Source: Beroe ovata (taxonomy: Eukaryota; Ctenophora; Nuda; Beroida; Beroidae). From it: 61,678 nucleotides of DNA. This document shows positions 17,158 through 57,200 of this stretch, one piece after another. The notes under the pieces are model-generated. The model did not search any database. It was given only the letters and a program-made list of their open reading frames with translations, and was not told where the DNA came from. Position numbers and translations under genes: made by a program. Where the stretch lies: assembly GCA_946803715.1 (NCBI GenBank), contig CAMPET010000017.1, positions 93,687-155,364 on the forward strand, read 5' to 3'. Numbering within the stretch: the first letter of the stretch is position 1; each line of letters starts with the position of its first letter.

Positions 17158-17596
17158 ATAGGTAGAACCTGAATCAGAATTTTATTTTTGTCCATTATAG
17201 TTGTTTGACAATGAAGTTGTATCAATAGTAGATATAATCAGATGATTTTTGTGCAGGAGTGAATAATTTGTAAGATAGATTTATCATCAATTTTATTATT
17301 GAATTAAGTTGATCAACAACTTATTATATCCCTGTTCCAACTGACTTTTTCACTCTTCATCATATCTTCAACCAACTAATTGCTACTGGGTTTTTCATTG
17401 GGATATTTTGCTGTTTTTACCTGATTCATATCCTTGCAGTTTGTATGTCTTGAGGCAAGTTCAAGGTCATATCATCATGTTTCATGTATGTAAGTGACCA
17501 CTTAACGCTGAGAAGTCAAGTCAAGTGAACACATCTACACTGCCACGGCTGATGTGAAGATTGAGAGCCAGGCGTCATGTTTCTCTCACTTAACAG
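17158..17596. other. SHOC1 3' flank and upstream part of the PH gene
   Basis: AT-rich DNA with no exon proven. The frame of the PH protein is open only from 17512 and has no ATG. A donor-like TAT|gtaagtg at 17489 could end a tiny exon, but its phase would create a stop on joining. Confidence 0.4.
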
Positions 17597-18387
17597 AGCA
17601 GAGGGAGCAGCGGAGATATTTTCACTGGGGTGTGTGTTTGTGGAAAAAGCCGGGCAGGTGGAATGTTCGAGTAAAAAAGCGAGTTTTCGTAATTCTTGAC
17701 AAGGTCCCCAAAGTCATGTTCATTCACAAGGATGAGATGTCCCGCACTTTTGACCCTGATGTCGAGATTCACGACAAATGTCTGGAGATCGTTCCACTAT
17801 CGGGTGCAGGGGTTGTGGCACGTCCTGATTGGGATAACGTTAGGAAACGGCGCTTTTATTTCAAAATTTACAATGTTCCCGGTCAGCTGCGACCTTTTTA
17901 CATATTCCGTAGCCAAACTTCAGCTGAACGGGACAAATGGGTCGAGAGGATCGAGTTTCTGACCAATTTGGCCGTCGACGTGGATGTTCTTCTGTCTAAT
18001 TGTGATATGTTGCAGCGGAAACTCTTCAGTGCAACGACCCTCCTGAAAATGAATATTGGAGAAGTGCTCCTGGAAAATATGTTGAACGGGACATATAAGA
18101 AGGGAAGTAGACGATATAGGGAGGTGGCTGGTCACTTGGGGGAGTTTTTCAAGATCTGGGAAGATGTCATGAGCAAGAAAGTGCAAGTTCACAACCAGAT
18201 GCTCTCTTTTGTTGAGAACGGGTCGTGGAAAACGAGGCGGAAACCGGAAGATGATGTGCTGTCATTGAGCGATGATGATGTAATTACACCCAGGGACAGA
18301 ATTCTTAATCGGGTTGTCAAGTCGATTAGGCATGTGAGAAGGAAATCCATCACTTCTGCCGCTGCTGATGACGAGTTTTGTGTTTGA
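17597..18387 (+). CDS. PH-domain protein, 3' exon (start exon not found)
   Basis: A polypyrimidine tract and acceptor (tttctctcacttaacag) precede 17597, and the frame runs to TGA 18387, about 263 residues. No in-frame ATG lies before the domain, so the start must be in an unseen upstream exon. The first ~115 residues look like a pleckstrin-homology fold: basic early strands (KKPGRWNVRVKKR), FYFKIYNV in the middle, and a closing helix with the invariant Trp (SAERDKWVERI). PH domains bind phosphoinositides or proteins at membranes. The rest is helical, then acidic/Ser-rich, ending with a basic stretch (RHVRRKS) and DDEFCV, a possible C-terminal PDZ ligand. I do not recognise the family. Confidence 0.6.
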
Positions 18388-18803: not shown

Positions 18804-40907
<22,104 letters not shown>

Positions 40908-41974: not shown

Positions 41975-44509
41975 ATGTATCTCTGGTTGATTGGTGGCTA
42001 TGGCAGAATGATAGCATACGTCAGAATCCCAAATCCACTTCGCCGCTTCATAATCTATGCCATCATCGGTCTATCAGTTTGGGGTATAATGTGGACCATC
42101 GAATCAACCATGACCAAACATAATCAGGCTCATAATGCTGTTCTTGGCGGCACTCAGACTGGCAATGATATGTACCGATTCCCGCCCATGGAGAACATTG
42201 AAACTGTGAAGGGTAGTTTTGATGAAGATTGGGATAATATGGACAATCCAGGGGTTATGGAGGCTGTTTCAGAGGAAATGTCCCAGAGGGTTCGATTGCT
42301 AAGAGAGCAGTGTGGGTATGAGGCTCGGGAGGAAAATCCTCAGCCTTACCAATTTTTCATGGATATTCCAGAGATAAAACTGAGGTGGTGTAAGATTTCA
42401 AAAGTAGGATCAACAAGTTGGGATTCGTATCTGTCTCAGTTTGCACCCCTCTGCAAAAAGGAAGATGTGTGGATCAAGTATTGTGTGCCAGAGCAATGGG
42501 CTTTGCAGTATCCTCCCAAATCTGACATTGAACAATGGAAACAGGAGGGCAAACGACCGGATTTCAACATTGACACTTTAAACTTTTTGATTGTCCGACA
42601 CCCTTTCCAGAGAATTGTTAGTGCATACAGGAGTAAGTTCGAAAACAACAAATTCAGTGGAGTCAAGTACTTCGACTTGTTGGGTAAAGATGCCATGTTC
42701 AAATATAGAAAAGTGTCAGGCAACCTAACAGAGGAAGACAAGTTATCACTTCTACATGAAACAGAACAGTTCATAAAATCGGGAATGACGACTCCAAAAG
42801 ATCCAAATAATCCATATCAGAATCCTCCATGGCCAACATTCTCAGAGTTTTCATCCGCTGTTCTCCTTGATGGCATCTATGAGAGGCATTGGTGGCCAAT
42901 ATCAAACCTATGTCTCCCTTGCTCTATCAATTACACAGCCATTGGCCATATGTCAACATTGGATAGAGATAGTGCATATGTGATGAAAACCCTCAAACTC
43001 AGGAGGCAAGGGTGGCCTAGCCAAACTAATGCGTCCCCAGGGGCATCGACTGATGAAATTTGGAAGGAATATTTTAGTTTATTGTCAGATGAATTATTGG
43101 AAGAATATAAATCATATTATCAGTCAGACTGTCGCCTATTCAGCTTTGATTGCAACACATCCAACATAGAAAAGACCAGAGTCGATCTGCAGGAGTACAC
43201 TAGACAGTTTTTCCCAGATGTCAACTTTTCAGCATCTCAGCACACTATCTTTGGTACATGTACTCCATATAGCTATGTTGCAGGGGACATATCGAAGCAT
43301 AACTTCAGTTCTAGGCCTTCTGCCATGTTTAGCTTCCAAAGGCATGGTAGAAGCAACTTTATAGGCCGAAAAGTCTTCAGAAAGTCCCTTTCAGATTTTT
43401 TTGGAAGATTGAAAACTTATTTAAAGACTAACAAACCACCTTCAGTTGACATGGATTGGTTCAATAGCTTTAAGTATAAACTGGTTTACAATGAAAACCT
43501 AGCATCAGAGGGGTATTTGCAAATGATTAGAAAAGGTGAAAGATTCATGGACGCATTCCCTGATTTGCTTGAGGACCCCCAGAGAGTAAAGGTTACATCA
43601 GCTGAGAAGGTCAGAATGATAGAATCAGCTTTGAGCTTCCTTTATGGTGCTTTTAAAGACTCATATTACTCCTCAAATTCTAGCATCATTCTTGGAGGTG
43701 AAGTCTACAGGGTGCTAGGTAATGTGACTCAGAAATGCAGCGGGAAAAAGTTAGGCCCTGTTTGCACTGTATATAAACAACTTTTTCATGAGCAGAAAGA
43801 TAGGAGGCCACTGAAAATGTTCAGCATAAACAGAAACAGGCTGAATAATTACTTTACCGAATGTGAAAATTGTAGAATTGAAAAGAATTATGCTCAAAAT
43901 GAAGGAGATGAGATACCTGAGAGCTTTTACAATTATCCGCTCTTTGCAAGAATGACTAACAATGTCAGTAATAGGCTAGGGATGGAATTGAAATTTCAGG
44001 ACATGAAAGTGTTGCACACTCTCTGCACACAAGAATTGACTATACCCAGACTTGTCCCTGGAGGTAAATTTTGCAGTTTATTCAGAGGAAATGATTTGCA
44101 GGTGCTAGGGTACTATATAGACTTGTTACAATATACAAGTTATATGAACCCAGCAAGAAAGAGAGCTGGTTGTATTGTGATGAGGGAAGCTTTGCAGGTT
44201 TTACAAAACAAAGAAATTGGACTATATTTCACACACAGACAAGCATTCTTCCCTCTTTTGGAAATTCTTGGGATTGTTTCTATTCCACTGACAGGATGGA
44301 GCCACGACGTAAATGATCGGGATTTCTATGGTGATTTATTACCTCATGGTGCTGACATAACGATGTTAAGAATGGACATTGCTAATAGTGTGATTGTGCA
44401 AGCATTTCTCAATGAGAAGAAAATAGAAATTCTGGGTTGTGGCAACCCCTGCACACTTCAAAAGCTCGAAGAAATGTTCCCACCAAATAAATGTTCCTTC
44501 CATGAATAA
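41975..44509 (+). CDS. Golgi carbohydrate sulfotransferase fused to a MINPP1-like pseudo-histidine-phosphatase
   Basis: A single exon encodes 844 residues; a TGA directly precedes ATG 41975. Residues ~25-42 are a signal-anchor helix after a basic N-terminus, as in Golgi type II enzymes. Residues ~130-395 are a Sulfotransfer_2 domain: the 5'-phosphosulfate loop SKVGSTSW (142-149), the 3'-phosphate site VRHPFQRIVSAYRS (207-220) and the conserved WWPISNLCLPC segment. These are features of the CHST8-14 group, which sulfates chondroitin/dermatan and GalNAc. Residues ~425-840 follow MINPP1: GTCTP (427), RHG (456), TSAEKVR...SALSFLYG (541), PGGKFCSLF (695) and HRQ (754). MINPP1 has RHGTRYP and HAE; here these read RHGRSNF and HRQ, so phosphatase activity is probably lost. 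The whole frame is open, so the fusion is genomic, not an assembly join of two broken frames. Confidence 0.85.
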   Translation: MYLWLIGGYGRMIAYVRIPNPLRRFIIYAIIGLSVWGIMWTIESTMTKHNQAHNAVLGGTQTGNDMYRFPPMENIETVKGSFDEDWDNMDNPGVMEAVSEEMSQRVRLLREQCGYEAREENPQPYQFFMDIPEIKLRWCKISKVGSTSWDSYLSQFAPLCKKEDVWIKYCVPEQWALQYPPKSDIEQWKQEGKRPDFNIDTLNFLIVRHPFQRIVSAYRSKFENNKFSGVKYFDLLGKDAMFKYRKVSGNLTEEDKLSLLHETEQFIKSGMTTPKDPNNPYQNPPWPTFSEFSSAVLLDGIYERHWWPISNLCLPCSINYTAIGHMSTLDRDSAYVMKTLKLRRQGWPSQTNASPGASTDEIWKEYFSLLSDELLEEYKSYYQSDCRLFSFDCNTSNIEKTRVDLQEYTRQFFPDVNFSASQHTIFGTCTPYSYVAGDISKHNFSSRPSAMFSFQRHGRSNFIGRKVFRKSLSDFFGRLKTYLKTNKPPSVDMDWFNSFKYKLVYNENLASEGYLQMIRKGERFMDAFPDLLEDPQRVKVTSAEKVRMIESALSFLYGAFKDSYYSSNSSIILGGEVYRVLGNVTQKCSGKKLGPVCTVYKQLFHEQKDRRPLKMFSINRNRLNNYFTECENCRIEKNYAQNEGDEIPESFYNYPLFARMTNNVSNRLGMELKFQDMKVLHTLCTQELTIPRLVPGGKFCSLFRGNDLQVLGYYIDLLQYTSYMNPARKRAGCIVMREALQVLQNKEIGLYFTHRQAFFPLLEILGIVSIPLTGWSHDVNDRDFYGDLLPHGADITMLRMDIANSVIVQAFLNEKKIEILGCGNPCTLQKLEEMFPPNKCSFHE

Positions 44510-44699
44510 CATCAATTCATTCTTATCACTGACATTTACTATTTATATATTAAGGTTTTTATGAAATGAAGTTGGATTGATCAACAAGCAAAGTGTATAT
44601 AGTTACTACCATAAAAAGACCAAACATGTGACAAGGGATTTCAACTGTACATAAAAGTTTGGGCAGTGAAATGACTAAAACTTATTGGTAAAAGGGTCA

Positions 44700-45490
44700 T
44701 AAGATTTGTAATTGTGTCCAATGTCCATTGTGTCAATCAATAAGAAAATTTCTAATGCACGTCCATTAAACACTCCACTCATCTTGAAAATTTGGTACTT
44801 TTGTCTATTGTACACCAATGGGCACATTAGACACAATTTGTCCATTTTCAATGTCCAATGGACATGTTCAATGGACACAATGGACATCAATCTTGTGCAC
44901 CTTGGTGGGCACAATGGACACATCTACAAATCCGCTCTTGTTGATGGACATCAAACTGGTATTTTAGTCTAATGGACACAATGTACAAATATTGACCAAT
45001 GGACACAGTGTGTCCAATACACATGTACATTGGACACACTTGATACATTGTGTCTACTGGATTCATCGTGTCCGCTGAACAAGATATGTCTATTGTTCAC
45101 ATGACGTCCACTGCGCACGATAAAACGCATGTCTAGTGTGCACAATGTGTTTATTGTACATAGTTTGTCCATTGGGCACAACATGTCCATTGGACACAAT
45201 ATGTCAATTGGGTTCGGGTAAGGGTTAGAGTTTCCCATGGAAATATAACATCCAATAGACATTTTGATCTTAATGGGCATATTTCGTCCAATGGTCACAT
45301 TTTGACCAGTGGAAATGCTGTGTCCATTAGACACACTGTGTTCAATGGACATTTGTGTATCCAATGGGCCTATTACATCTAATGGGCATATTATGTCCAG
45401 TGGATATGCTGTGTCCAATGGACATGATTATTGGACACACTGTGTCCATTGTGTTTATTGGTCAATATTTGTCCTTATGCCCATTTGCAT
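44700..45490. repeat. Degenerate minisatellite of TGTCCA/TGGACA palindromic words
   Basis: About 800 bp are built from GTCCANTGGACACA(A/T)TGTGTCC-like words on both strands; TGTCCATTGGACACA-type units are themselves palindromic. Copies are diverged. It lies just 3' of the fusion gene. Confidence 0.8.
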
Positions 45491-45577
45491 TACATTGCCC
45501 AACAAGGCCAAGGATGGGTCAGGAAACCTAAAGGCGAAAAAGAGATAATTCATGTACAATGTAAATGTAATATTGTA

Positions 45578-47504: not shown

Positions 47505-50500
47505 TCATGTTACTTTTCGACGTTTGGCGTACTTGGGTTTGGGGGGAGAAAACTGAAGTAGGGTCGAATTTTGGTTTTCTTTCCTTTCACTGTTGCTTTG
47601 ACCCTTCTTGGATGTTTCTTCTAATCGTTTCCTACTCCTATTCAAGAATAAGATCGTGAAAATGTTTCATTAAGATTCGGAGAAAAAGGAAATAATCTTG
47701 ACCATCACCCGAATTAAAAAAATTGATTTCTGCCACTCAAAATGGGACTGATAGACATTGAATTTTGAATCACCTCGTTTTAGGAGAATTGGGGATCTCA
47801 AATGCGGTATTGGAAGCGTGCGAGTGACCACCGCCGCAATGAAGAGCTCCCCTCGTTATCCGACCGGATGCCTCCATGTTTAGAGTTTTCTCGTAGTACT
47901 GAACTTCCGTCGGATACGTTGACCTGAGACCATTAGATGTCTTGAAGATGTTTCCAAGTCATACCAGGCCGTTAACCCAGTCAAGAATTAGAAATTTCGC
48001 ATCTGTGCTTTATCATAAATTCCAAATTCTTTATCTTCAATGCGACTCCTACTAAATACCCCAATACTCCAACTCAACGTTAACCCAATATTTCTTGTTT
48101 GTCAACTGCAACTGTATCATGTGGAATAAGAAGCCCATGGACAACGAACCTGAGGTGCGGTGGTGCAGCCTGATTCCTCTTAGACATTTCTTCAATTCTT
48201 GCATCATCGACATCACTAGTGAAGCTTTTCTTTGGCGTCTGAAAGTGAGGAGTATCACTGATTCCAGTCAAGTAATTAGACTGATTTTGACCAATTTCAA
48301 ATAAACCTTTTAAATAGAGTGTTGTGAGGACCGGACTCACTGATATACAGGACAAGAGGAGTTTCGGAGAAATTATGCACATATATAGCTCGGTCTTTGC
48401 GCGCGCGTATTCAATCTTCCATCAGCGCGAGTATCATCACAGATTTTGACAATATCGCTAGTGAAAATAGCAACTTTCGGAATGAGCGCCAAATTCAAGT
48501 TTGGTTGTGTGAGTTTTCTCACCCAATTTTTGGTATGTGTCAATTCAAGATATCGTATGACCGTATGTCATCTGGACATTTTCCACAAGTTCTCCGACAA
48601 TTATATTATTGTGATACATACCAGCAATCTAGGGATGTGTGAGGGTGTCTTCGGAGCACGTCTTGATACAACGGGAGTTTTGATAGTAAGCGAGGTGTCA
48701 GATGGGGAATCTGGATCAAGCTGCTGCTTCTGCGCTGCAATGGTTCTCTCAAGTTTTTTTATTGTGTTCTCCTGAGAATGACAATATTGTTTGAAAGTAA
48801 TAAGGTACACTATCCACTGATTTCGATGCTATTATGCTATGAACTCACTTTTTCAATGCTACTCTTTTTAGCGATAAACAATTCCGCATTGAGATCCGCT
48901 TTCATTTTACAGAATTCCTGTCTGTGTTCGTGAACAATGTCATCCAATCTGAGGACGAAGTCAGCAGCTGACAATCACCACTCAATTACACTATAACCAA
49001 CACTCAGGGACCGTTCACATATTACGTAATCAAAATTTCGGCATTTTTACCCCCCTTCCCCCTCCGTAATCATCCGTAATCATTGCTCAAACCCCCCTCT
49101 TAGAAGGGAAATATTACGTAATCACGGACCCAACCCCAAAAATGACTTTAGACTTGCTCTGCTGTCTGCTAGTGTTCAGATCCCTATGTCGAGGGCAACC
49201 TACAACATTTTGATCCAGGACTCGACAGACATGCCTGTAGGATGATCACAGACTTGCTTAGACTCGCCCTACAGGCTGCTTTCTGCTTTGATTACGTTGT
49301 ATGCTGGCTGTTATTCACAGTATTGTATCCAGTGGAGCCTGTTGGCCATTTTGAATGGAGTACTGAGTTTATAAGCTCAGTAGAGAGGATACACAGTAGG
49401 TGTCAAGTGATATATGCTTCCTTGAAGGTAGTACAGCACTTTGAAGGGAGTACTAAGATGTATACAGTGAGTATACGCTCAGTAGAATGAAGCACAGTGA
49501 GTGCTAGCGATACACAGTGAGTATAGGCTCAGTAGAATGAAGCACAGTGAGTGCTAGCGATATACAGTGAGTATACGCTCAGTAGAATGAAGCACAGTGA
49601 GTGCTAACGATATACAGTGAATATACGCTTGGTAGAATGGGGCAAAGTGAGTGCTAGCGATATACAGTGAGTATACGCTCAGTAGAAGGAAGCACAGTGA
49701 GTGCTCGCGATATACAGTGAGTATACGCTCAGTAGAAAGAAGCACAGTGACTAGTGAGTGCTAAAGATATACAGTGAGTATACGCTCAGTGGAGTGGAGC
49801 ACGGTGAGTGCTAACCTGCATACAGTTACTTACTTACATCTTATACTAAGCCACGTGGGTTTAACTTGTGTTTCAAACCGGTGCTTAATAAGCTCATTAC
49901 ACACTGCTGAAGTGTCACGTGATCTGCTAATTACAACCGTGATATACCACGTGACCCGCAAGAGGTATACACACATACTATAAACCTAATCAGAGAAAAT
50001 GATGCATGTCAAACTTTGGACTTGCCGTCTGACAGGCGTTGAGAATTTTAAAGATGTCTTGATTACGTAATCAAGGTCAAAACCCCCTCCCCCCTCCGTA
50101 ATCAAGCGTAATCATTTGGAAACCCCCTCCCCCCTCGGCTGATAAAGTTAATATGTGTACGGTCCCTTATGCACATGAACTTTAGTTTAGCGTGACAACA
50201 CTTTTATTGAAATTGGTTCGCTCTCACACCACTTACACATGATACCATTTGCTGTATTCATATTTTCACAAAGTACTCATTACTTACTTAGTATCACTCT
50301 CGAATTTCAACTTCTTGTACATTGCTTTCCAAGAGTCCAGTTTTTCTGTTGCAGTCTTCAACTGCAACTGCACCTCCTTGAGTTCATTCCTCTGTTTTGT
50401 GATTTCCTCAACCTGGGAGTTGAGTGTTTCCTGCATCACTTTCTCTCCTATCTCATAGTTGTCAATCTTGCTGACGAGCTCTTCTTTTTCCTTCTTCATC

Positions 50501-54284: not shown

Positions 54285-57200
54285 TCACTCTTGTCTCGTT
54301 GCATAATCATATGCATTGTCAGGGGCAGGGAAGGGGGGAGGACCATGATTTCCTTGCATCTCCTCGTATATCAAGCTGTTAGTTCTTGCATTGTGTGTCT
54401 GATCATCCAAGATTGGTTGATAGTTGTTACCTGAATAGAGTATTGTATTGATGGTAAAGTACCCATGCTTCATTTATCCCTGAAAATTCACTGTAGGTTG
54501 TGTTATAGGTATCACGTTTACTCACCAACCCTACTGTACAATGGGTTACAAGCCATGTTATTTGGGAGATTCCCGTATGAATTAATCATTGGTGGAGGCA
54601 TTGGTGGGCGGTTTCGGGTCAACGATTCCATGCAAACTGACTGACAGCCACTGCTTTGACATCCATTGGGATAGTTTCCATTTCTATCAACAACCTAAGT
54701 AAGTGAAAGTTAATAGATTGACAGTTTCAATCATTCTCCATTGACTGTACTGATGGATTGATTGGGCTGGTGAAACTGAGTATGACTATTTCATGGACCT
54801 ACCTCATAAAGATCTTCTGCTGCACTGAGAGCCTGAGCCTCAGGCGGAAGTGCCAGGTTGCTCCGAGCTTCCTTCTTCTTCTTACCTTTCTGAAATGAAA
54901 GGTAGGTTTGTTCTCATAATCTAGACTTGGTTTCTCATGATCTAAACTCAATTCAATACCTATAGCAAATATTCTCAAGAGTTTTACCTACCTATCTACT
55001 TACCCTCATTAGCAGTACACAGGTGATCACAGTGAGGATTGTGATGGTGAGAATGGCTGTAACTGCAATCACAATCCATATCCACCAGTCTCTGAGGAAG
55101 TTGTTGCTTTCCACTCCTGCACTCTTTGACCCTGTAGTGATATGTTTTATGTATGTTGGCCCCAAACTATGATTTCTTTAATGATAATATTGCATGGCTT
55201 TCCTCCAAAATAGTAATGCAAATTATTCTCTCACCGAAACAGCGAGTGTTTTTATTGGTCCATCCATATGGTGTACACTGCGCTTCTGTAACGCCATCCA
55301 AACTGTAACCAGCATCACAACGAATCTGGAATTGAGGATGAAATTGAACCGTTTTCTGAAGATCTTGCCCATGGTTTTGGAATATTTTCTGACAATTGAT
55401 GACACAAACCTGTACTGATTCGCCACATCTAGCACCGACAGCTGAGAGCACTGCCTGTCCACCAAATGTGAGAGATCCATTTCCAGGACTGTCGAGGTCA
55501 CCACACGTGAATTCTGATACAGATATTGGTGTTAGTCAAATGGGAATACGGTATTCTCGACAAACTATCTATACTTGGTACCTAACCTATAGTCATGACT
55601 CATTAGTCATGATCTATGATAATAGTCATAATAATTGTCATGATCGTGATTGTCTTTCCCAACTCACCTGCATCTACACAAGATGGCGGCTGCTCTGACC
55701 ATGATCCCGACCTACAGATGAGGTCTCTGGAATGCGAGGGTATCTCACACTCATTGTCACACTTGAATGTCACCACGGTTCTGTCCTCGGTTAGACCGGT
55801 GCTGGGACGGGCGGTGGTTCTCGGTAGTTTTGGGCACGCTGTGGAGAAGGGGATGAGTGAACACTAACAGGAATAGACTTCATTTATGATGTTAGCGACG
55901 TGATTAAGAACTAACCTTGGGCATTGACACACTTCGTGTCCAAGTTATCCCATCCGTTAGCCAGACAATTAGCCTCCCGTCTCCCCACAAGATCAAAGTA
56001 GGTGTTGCAGTGAATCTGAACAACACGATGTCGTAATCAAACACACTGTAATCGAAGATAGATCTAAGTAAGAGCTTCATGATCAGCTATATAGTCAATA
56101 CCTCGAGACTTTGGCCACAGGTTGCCCCATTCACTGAGTATCTGACATTGTTGTTGAATAAGATTGTAGCATTGCCTGGACCATCAAACCTTGGACAGGT
56201 GTACCCTGAAGTTGGTAGAATTATAGACCTTAGTAAATATTGAAACGTTTTCACCAGTTATTTCATATCTCTAGCTGATAATGTTCTAGGTGGTGTTGGC
56301 GACAAATAATGAGATTATTTAGTAATAAGTCTGTGCATGTTTATCGTGAGCCCACTATATTACAAGGAGATTGTTGTATTCTCTACTTCTCTATGAGCGG
56401 ATAGAACTGTGACATTACCTGCGTTACTGCAGGTCGGAGGCTCATCTGACCAAGTGCCGGAGTCACACACAAGAGCTCTGGAATGTGACACCGTGTGACA
56501 CTCATTCTGACACGAGAAATTCACGACCGTCCTATCCTTTGCGAGGAGTGTGCTCGGTTGTGCGTTGGTCCTCATCAATGGTGGGCAGCCTGCAGAGGGG
56601 AGTTATGTAAGTTTTCCTGGAAGCAGAATGGAAGCCATGGTTCACATGTTCGTGGTAACGATGGAAATCATCAACAGGACGATCAATGATCGGTCCTGGT
56701 ATGTTCGATGTCACTAGTGGTTGATAAAAGGGAGGACTTGTTAGGAAATGATATTTATCGGTCAATAGGTACAGGATCCGACATTCTAACCTGTACGCGG
56801 GACTATTGGAGTCGATATTCTCTGGAGGGGTCTCCCAGAGTACTTAGCTGCAAACTGCAGGTGAAACGTGAATTCTGGAACTGTTATCTCTGCCAGATAT
56901 CCTCCTTGGAATTTCTGAAACCAGATTATGATAATTCAAGATGTTTGAGGTCGCAGTCAAATAGTCAGCTGAAATATAAGTAGTAATAATCGAGTTGCTC
57001 ATTCTATTGACTACCTGTCTTCAAACCTACCTTCATTGAATGAGATGACCCGGGATGGTTTGAAACAACTGCTGTCACCTCCACATCGTAAACTGCTTCA
57101 CCAAATGTGACAAAGACCAGTGCAGTTGTTCCAGAGTCCAGGGTGTTTGTCATCACCAACTTGCTATCAACCTTAAGGGGGCTTCAGGTCATCGAGGACA

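Follow-up and report, generated by a model that had tools for sequence, protein, structure and literature searches.

A Beroe ovata sulfotransferase joined in one reading frame to a histidine-phosphatase-like domain, a candidate non-hydrolyzing anion-binding module

In the branch 2 histidine phosphatase BlMINPP, the phosphate to be cleaved is gripped by arginines 44, 48, and 142 and attacked by His-45, with the glutamate of the HAE motif presumed to donate the proton; the E401Q protein is inactive and was crystallized as the phosphohistidine (as described in the available part of PMC7762957). The same pocket also binds the sulfate ester inositol hexasulfate (InsS6) (PMC7762957, available part), and BtMINPP has likewise been described with InsS6 bound (in the accessible text of PMC3969271). 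In glycosaminoglycan synthesis, the 2-phosphoxylose phosphatase PXYLP1 (also XYLP) is a phosphatase acting in the pathway (PMC12110425, in part). Here we examine a gene of the ctenophore Beroe ovata in which a domain of the histidine-phosphatase kind follows a sulfotransferase in one frame. It lies in a stretch of 61,678 nucleotides (the window; positions 93,687 to 155,364 of contig CAMPET010000017.1, assembly GCA_946803715.1). We hold with moderate confidence that its product is a type II, Golgi-type, CHST-like sulfotransferase carrying a non-hydrolyzing, anion-binding histidine-phosphatase module. The principal features of the gene are as follows.

41975 to 44509, plus strand: single open coding frame for a sulfotransferase and a histidine-phosphatase-like domain, 844 residues, no internal stops
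42008 to 42010, plus strand: Met12, the second ATG and a possible true start (A at -3; the first ATG has T)
42047 to 42103, plus strand: putative type II signal anchor, residues 25-43, Kyte-Doolittle hydropathy 1.72 over 19 residues
42365 to 43150, plus strand: Sulfotransfer_2 domain (PF03567), residues 131-392, Pfam E 3.1e-30
43241 to 44506, plus strand: histidine-phosphatase branch 2 domain, residues 423-844, with the Pfam match at 486-770

Both Pfam matches lie well above their cut-offs, with 106.6 bits for PF03567 (cut-off 22) and 53.1 bits, E 4.5e-14, for PF00328 (His_Phos_2; cut-off 23.6). No further Pfam family matches the protein at E <= 1, and the two-domain result in a single frame is far beyond chance. 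Searches of NCBIfam and PHROGs gave no match to the protein, and a single-sequence search of the PDB gave 11 weak matches (E 0.32-0.7), mostly on the hydrophobic N terminus.

The arrangement recurs. Across the genome (77.8 Mb, 534 contigs), the window protein matches 16 places. One of these, on contig C6, is an open frame that spans 846 codons between its stops and has PF03567 and PF00328 in the same order. A third fusion gene is split by introns.

C198, 61500 to 70500: third fusion gene (L037), eight exons encoding 808 residues in a GT-AG exon-joining model

Pfam recognizes both families in the C198 gene model (PF03567, E 1e-8; PF00328, E 6.7e-10). In a collection of 5.8 billion proteins, P0002 (834 residues) has both domains in the same order at 53% identity, and P0007 (476 residues) has the sulfotransferase and ends soon after the phosphatase part begins; neither is among the 16 places matched in the B. 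ovata genome. A distant match, P0008, has the sulfotransferase only (protein searches, 4369 and 4419 candidates). The preliminary description of this locus, made from the window's letters alone, had reported the fusion in 844 codons and knew of no animal CHST with such a domain. The fusion is borne out, and it is not a one-off, given the two further genes in the genome and the relatives P0002 and P0007. Of the findings which that description had named as telling against it, two were looked for, and in each case the opposite was found: PF00328 matches the C-terminal half, and the frame is open between the halves in the window, in the C6 copy, and in P0002. We accordingly reject the idea that two genes were merged by misassembly or misreading, to which we attach a negligible probability, since there is one open frame and the same order is seen in C6 and C198, each on a contig of its own, as well as in P0002. 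No report of a sulfotransferase/histidine-phosphatase fusion appeared in the titles and abstract openings of the literature matches listed, a survey that mostly leaves out subscription papers and preprints.

The genome also contains phosphatase-like genes that stand alone. Two without a sulfotransferase lie on contigs C88 (L003) and C10 (L004), with an N-terminal hydrophobic stretch above threshold in L003 and not in L004. A third, on C13 (L005), has by eye a signal-peptide-like start and has a hydrophobic C-terminal end. The strongest PF00328 match among enzymes of the HxE kind occurs at two near-identical places, L010 (C227) and L009 (C480), perhaps two haplotypes separated in the assembly. 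No COX1 gene came to light in a search of the genome. Searches farther afield were negative. Of 43 pattern matches in bacterial and archaeal contigs and 191 in viral contigs, none was confirmed as a relative. The DNA pattern for RHGTRYP occurs in at least 117 stretches of bacterial and archaeal contigs, and among the 80 examined the best match to the family profile reached E 0.07, so that we ascribe these matches to chance. Searched against proteins, the C6 phosphatase region retrieved 0 of 4787 candidates at E <= 0.01, but P0002 was missed too, and with sensitivity so low the result does not speak for the absence of relatives.

The N terminus is compatible with more than one start. A TGA lies in frame immediately 5' of the first ATG, and the C6 protein begins to align at about window residue 8; the frame as listed is the longest reading, with a start at the first ATG not proven. 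The hydrophobic stretch is retained from either ATG. By hydropathy, which is not a topology method, comparable N-terminal stretches occur in C6, C198, and P0007. Nine N-glycosylation sequons all lie C-terminal of the stretch at 25-43, and this placement, with the stretch itself, would fit a type II lumenal protein.

If the product is such a protein, its sulfotransferase half would use 3'-phosphoadenosine 5'-phosphosulfate (PAPS) for sulfation of a glycan. The motifs concerned, read in the translation, are given here.

42389 to 42421, plus strand: CKISKVGSTSW, which we take to be the 5'-phosphosulfate-binding motif (Lys143)
42593 to 42628, plus strand: VRHPFQRIVSAY, which we take to be the 3'-phosphate-binding motif (Arg208, Ser216)

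The window copy has the complete set of PAPS residues (Lys143, Arg208, and Ser216), and P0002 and P0007 retain the lysine and Arg208. In an alignment of 31 rows that includes 20 of the 27 genome Pfam places, 20 rows are gapped at the lysine column; lysine stands in 10 of the 11 lettered rows, the window included, and asparagine stands in the C6 copy. In the C198 fusion the lysine has become serine and Arg208 glycine. The lysine is thus lost in C6 and C198, and sulfotransferase activity is therefore not constant across the fusion family.

The second half of the protein carries the altered catalytic motifs.

43340 to 43354, plus strand: altered nucleophile motif R456 H457 G458 R459 S460, where RHGxR is expected (translation, alignment)
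43613 to 43615, plus strand: Arg547, putative equivalent of BlMINPP Arg-142, arginine in 8 of 8 alignment rows
44234 to 44242, plus strand: altered proton-donor motif H754 R755 Q756, where HAE is expected (translation, alignment)

We compared these positions in eight rows, comprising six clade members (window, C6, P0002, C198, L003, and L004) and two outgroups (L005 and the C227 gene). RHG, the later arginine (Arg547, whose correspondence to the BlMINPP residue is inferred by motif), and His754 are retained in all six clade members. Two changes stand out. First, the RHGxR arginine is serine in the window alone and is kept in the other five. The altered motif lies outside the window's PF00328 match, whose first residue is 486 (position 36 of the profile), beyond the motif; in C6, P0002, and C198 the match begins at profile position 5-8 and covers it. 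Second, the donor position reads HxQ in all six readable clade members (HRQ in the window; HSQ in C6, P0002, and C198; HFQ in L003 and L004), and the glutamate is present in both outgroup rows (HTE in L005, HEE in the C227 gene). Aspartate directly after the donor histidine (the HD motif, the other known donor) occurs in none of the six. Because HxQ is common to the whole clade, the Glu-to-Gln change looks old and maintained; with the four fusions compared only 36-48% identical over the phosphatase domain, the glutamine looks kept rather than drifted. In C198, where RHGxR and HSQ are combined with the Lys-to-Ser and Arg-to-Gly changes, both halves look catalytically unable by motif. Much of the preliminary description holds at this level. 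The PAPS motifs are intact as it stated (SKVGSTSW at 142-149, VRHPFQRIVSAYR at 207-219); its landmarks GTCTP (427-431), TSAEK...SALSFLYG, and GGKFCSLF are present; and the signature is altered at both ends (RHGRSNF at 456-462, HRQ at 754-756). Of the two alterations, RHGRS is peculiar to this protein, whereas HxQ is shared by the clade.

We favor a non-hydrolyzing, anion-binding module because the clade's HxQ matches the inactive BlMINPP E401Q and MINPPs bind InsS6 in the same pocket (PMC7762957 and PMC3969271, as far as the available text goes). The phosphatase half, probably of the MINPP kind, would be unable to complete phosphate hydrolysis, and the C-terminal module would grip a phosphorylated or sulfated glycan close to the sulfotransferase. 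A binding role for the second domain, which the preliminary description had suggested, is plausible.

The same residues bear on two other possibilities. In one, the module would be a single-turnover phospho-carrier or sensor, whose long-lived phosphohistidine alters the sulfotransferase or hands the phosphate on. We know of no precedent for a stable lumenal phosphohistidine. There is no known phosphate donor, and the RHGxR arginine is lost in the window copy, but the arginine is intact in five of the six members and the clade-wide change equals the E401Q substitution that trapped phosphohistidine in BlMINPP (PMC7762957, available part); we consider this mechanism doubtful. In the other, the domain would be a slow or specialized phosphatase that uses another donor, such as water or a neighboring carboxylate. 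AppA D304A, in which the proton donor is removed, still acts, with altered specificity (accessible part of PMC9181005). Nevertheless, BlMINPP E401Q is called inactive (PMC7762957, in the portion available) and the window has also lost the RHGxR arginine, and residual turnover of this kind seems very improbable.

The three fusion genes of the genome divide in a reciprocal manner. The window is the only one with complete PAPS motifs, and it has the most altered phosphatase motifs; C6 and C198 show the opposite pattern, with damaged PAPS motifs and less altered phosphatase motifs. This raises the possibility of mixed complexes, in which the window product would supply sulfotransferase activity and the products of C6, C198, or the C10 and C88 genes the phosphate-gripping pocket. 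The damage is complementary: Lys143 is present and the RHGxR arginine absent in the window copy, whereas RHGxR is intact and PAPS residues are replaced in C6 (Lys to Asn) and in C198 (Lys to Ser, Arg208 to Gly), and the C10 and C88 genes have no sulfotransferase. But independent decay of duplicates would yield the same pattern, and PAPS motifs and RHGxR are both kept in the single P0002 chain. We regard mixed complexes as unlikely.

The two halves have evolved unequally. For pairs of copies we counted private changes, meaning positions at which one copy departs both from its partner and from a reference (P0002 unless stated). For window against C6, the sulfotransferase half gives 16:54 and the phosphatase half 73:58 (Fisher p 7e-6), and for window against P0002, with C6 as reference, 16:38 and 73:40 (p 2.9e-5). 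The control, C6 and P0002 with the window as reference, splits evenly (54:38 and 58:40, p 1). Comparisons against C198 point the same way (p 5e-10 and 1e-6), owing to the fast C198 sulfotransferase half. Sequences recur among these tests, which are thus not independent of one another. In a four-taxon tree the branches for window, C6, P0002, and C198 are 0.20, 0.39, 0.40, and 2.09 for the sulfotransferase and 0.79, 0.65, 0.34, and 0.97 for the phosphatase; the window's phosphatase half is thus fast relative to its own sulfotransferase half, and that of C198 is faster still. Leave-one-out departures at otherwise constant phosphatase columns are 19/101 for the window, 19/101 for C198, 8/90 for C6, 6/88 for P0002, 4/86 for L003, and 1/83 for L004, the last two being lowered by the near-relatedness of L003 and L004. 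The window's changes at columns constant in its five relatives include H455Q, R460S, and C548M. Between window and C6, the proportions of nonsynonymous (pN) and synonymous (pS) differences are 0.24 and 0.92 in the sulfotransferase half and 0.38 and 0.81 in the phosphatase half, with pS saturated in both. Since pN lies below saturated pS in each half, both are under purifying selection.

These rates suit a further alternative, in which the phosphatase half is a structural remnant, or a scaffold for folding or oligomerization, with an idle pocket drifting in the window copy. The excess of private changes in the window's phosphatase half, relative to its sulfotransferase half, and the altered columns just listed are what such drift would leave. 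C198, however, has as many altered columns, so that the count is not peculiar to the window; RHG, Arg547, and His754 are kept and the glutamine is constant in all six members; phosphatase pN is well under saturated pS; and L003 and L004 keep the domain while having no sulfotransferase. We judge a remnant or scaffold somewhat unlikely, though it is the competitor we take most seriously.

Several observations weigh against the anion-binding reading. In the window's phosphatase half one of the phosphate-gripping arginines, that of RHGxR, is gone (RHGRS), and this half is less constrained and faster than the sulfotransferase half; both facts agree with a decaying domain or a scaffold no less than with a binding module. 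The PAPS lysine is lost in two of the three fusion genes of the genome. P0002 has no N-terminal hydrophobic stretch by hydropathy, although its start may be incomplete. Finally, AlphaFold2 models are of low confidence, with a mean predicted local distance difference test (pLDDT) score of 30.2 from a three-row alignment and 33.2 for the phosphatase half from two rows.

Intron positions and the phosphatase tree bear on how the family arose.

43331 to 43333, plus strand: codon Ser453, where the C198 and C13 genes have a phase 2 intron and P0007 ends

The window gene has no intron at this codon. The C198 and C13 gene models have two intron positions and phases in common, one of phase 2 inside the serine codon that immediately precedes xxRHG and one of phase 1 after a WIL motif. 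The simplest history would have a sulfotransferase exon placed ahead of a phosphatase gene that already contained introns, followed by intron loss in the window and C6 copies, perhaps through retroposition. In the phosphatase tree, a branch with 100% support separates the fusions, together with L003 and L004, from L005 and the C227 gene. Within the clade the L003/L004 pair has a support of 100, and the other supports are 44, 57, and 80. With the order inside the clade so weakly fixed, L003 and L004 may have lost a sulfotransferase or may never have had one. An old fusion could have fixed the Glu-to-Gln change, making a polyanion-gripping module, with the duplicates then dividing the work as a mixed Golgi complex in which the window copy retains the sulfotransferase chemistry and its sisters the pocket; we offer this combined scenario as a speculation with little probability.

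Other elements surround the gene. TGTCCA/TGGACA words are dense directly 3' of it, with 23 of the 62 in the whole window falling at 44600-45500, and show no enrichment downstream of the C6 paralogue (2 in 1497 bases of 3' flank). Upstream, at 31290-38701, lie fragments of a gene for a dynein heavy chain (AAA_7, AAA_8, Dynein_heavy, and AAA_lid_11). A 999-codon open frame at 14158-17154 matches DUF5587 (E 3e-12) and is presumably kin to SHOC1, and an open frame at 17515-18381 contains a PH domain (E 9.4e-7). A tandem array of a 50-base unit (6.9 copies) occupies 49461-49813, and a Sushi repeat (E 1e-5) lies at 55170-55535 on the minus strand. The dynein heavy chain, the DUF5587 protein, and the Sushi repeat, along with the GT-AG introns, would suit an animal genome.

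Should the anion-binding reading be correct, a phosphatase fold would have been re-used as the charged-glycan-binding part of a sulfating enzyme, and the clade would display in nature the E-to-Q change that serves as a trap in the laboratory. The locus would then be one of a few related genes whose two halves can be seen to be preserved or to erode separately, and a direct test would be possible of Golgi coupling between recognition of existing charge and further sulfation.

Among described proteins, human NDST1 and PXYLP1 are analogies only. The sulfotransferase of NDST1 belongs to a different Pfam family from the window's, and PXYLP1 is histidine-phosphatase kin that is not known to be fused to a sulfotransferase. 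NDST1 resembles the protein proposed here in combining a sulfotransferase with a second catalytic domain, a hydrolase, in a type II Golgi protein (available part of PMC10864358), but its hydrolase is of another kind and both of its catalytic domains are active. PXYLP1, unlike the window's domain, is a separate active enzyme; the preliminary description invoked it as a functional precedent, which stands as an analogy, and nothing in the present results links the window's domain to linker xylose phosphate.

The closer relatives are found half by half. The sulfotransferase is presumably of the CHST8-14/HNK1ST kind. It is like the Sulfotransfer_2 carbohydrate sulfotransferases in matching PF03567 over the whole domain, in its PAPS motifs, and in its N-terminal hydrophobic stretch, whereas the window protein adds a second, phosphatase-like domain of 422 residues. 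A PDB search with a profile of P0001, P0002, and P0007 matched 1qfx alone (E 4.9e-7) and no sulfotransferase structure. A six-row family profile with two outgroup rows retrieved 1qfx (E 1.6e-21), 4fdt (E 2.6e-7), and 6rxf (E 0.015), ranking fungal acid phosphatase and phytases above MINPPs, so that the earlier label "MINPP1-type" is likely and not proven. With the MINPPs and branch 2 phytases (BlMINPP, BtMINPP, and the Aspergillus pH 2.5 acid phosphatase), the window protein shares PF00328, RHG, the later arginine, and the donor histidine; relatives of the HxE kind (L005, HTE; L009/L010, HEE) persist in the same genome. It differs from those enzymes in the glutamine that its clade has in place of the donor glutamate, in its own lack of the RHGxR arginine, and in its fusion to a sulfotransferase.

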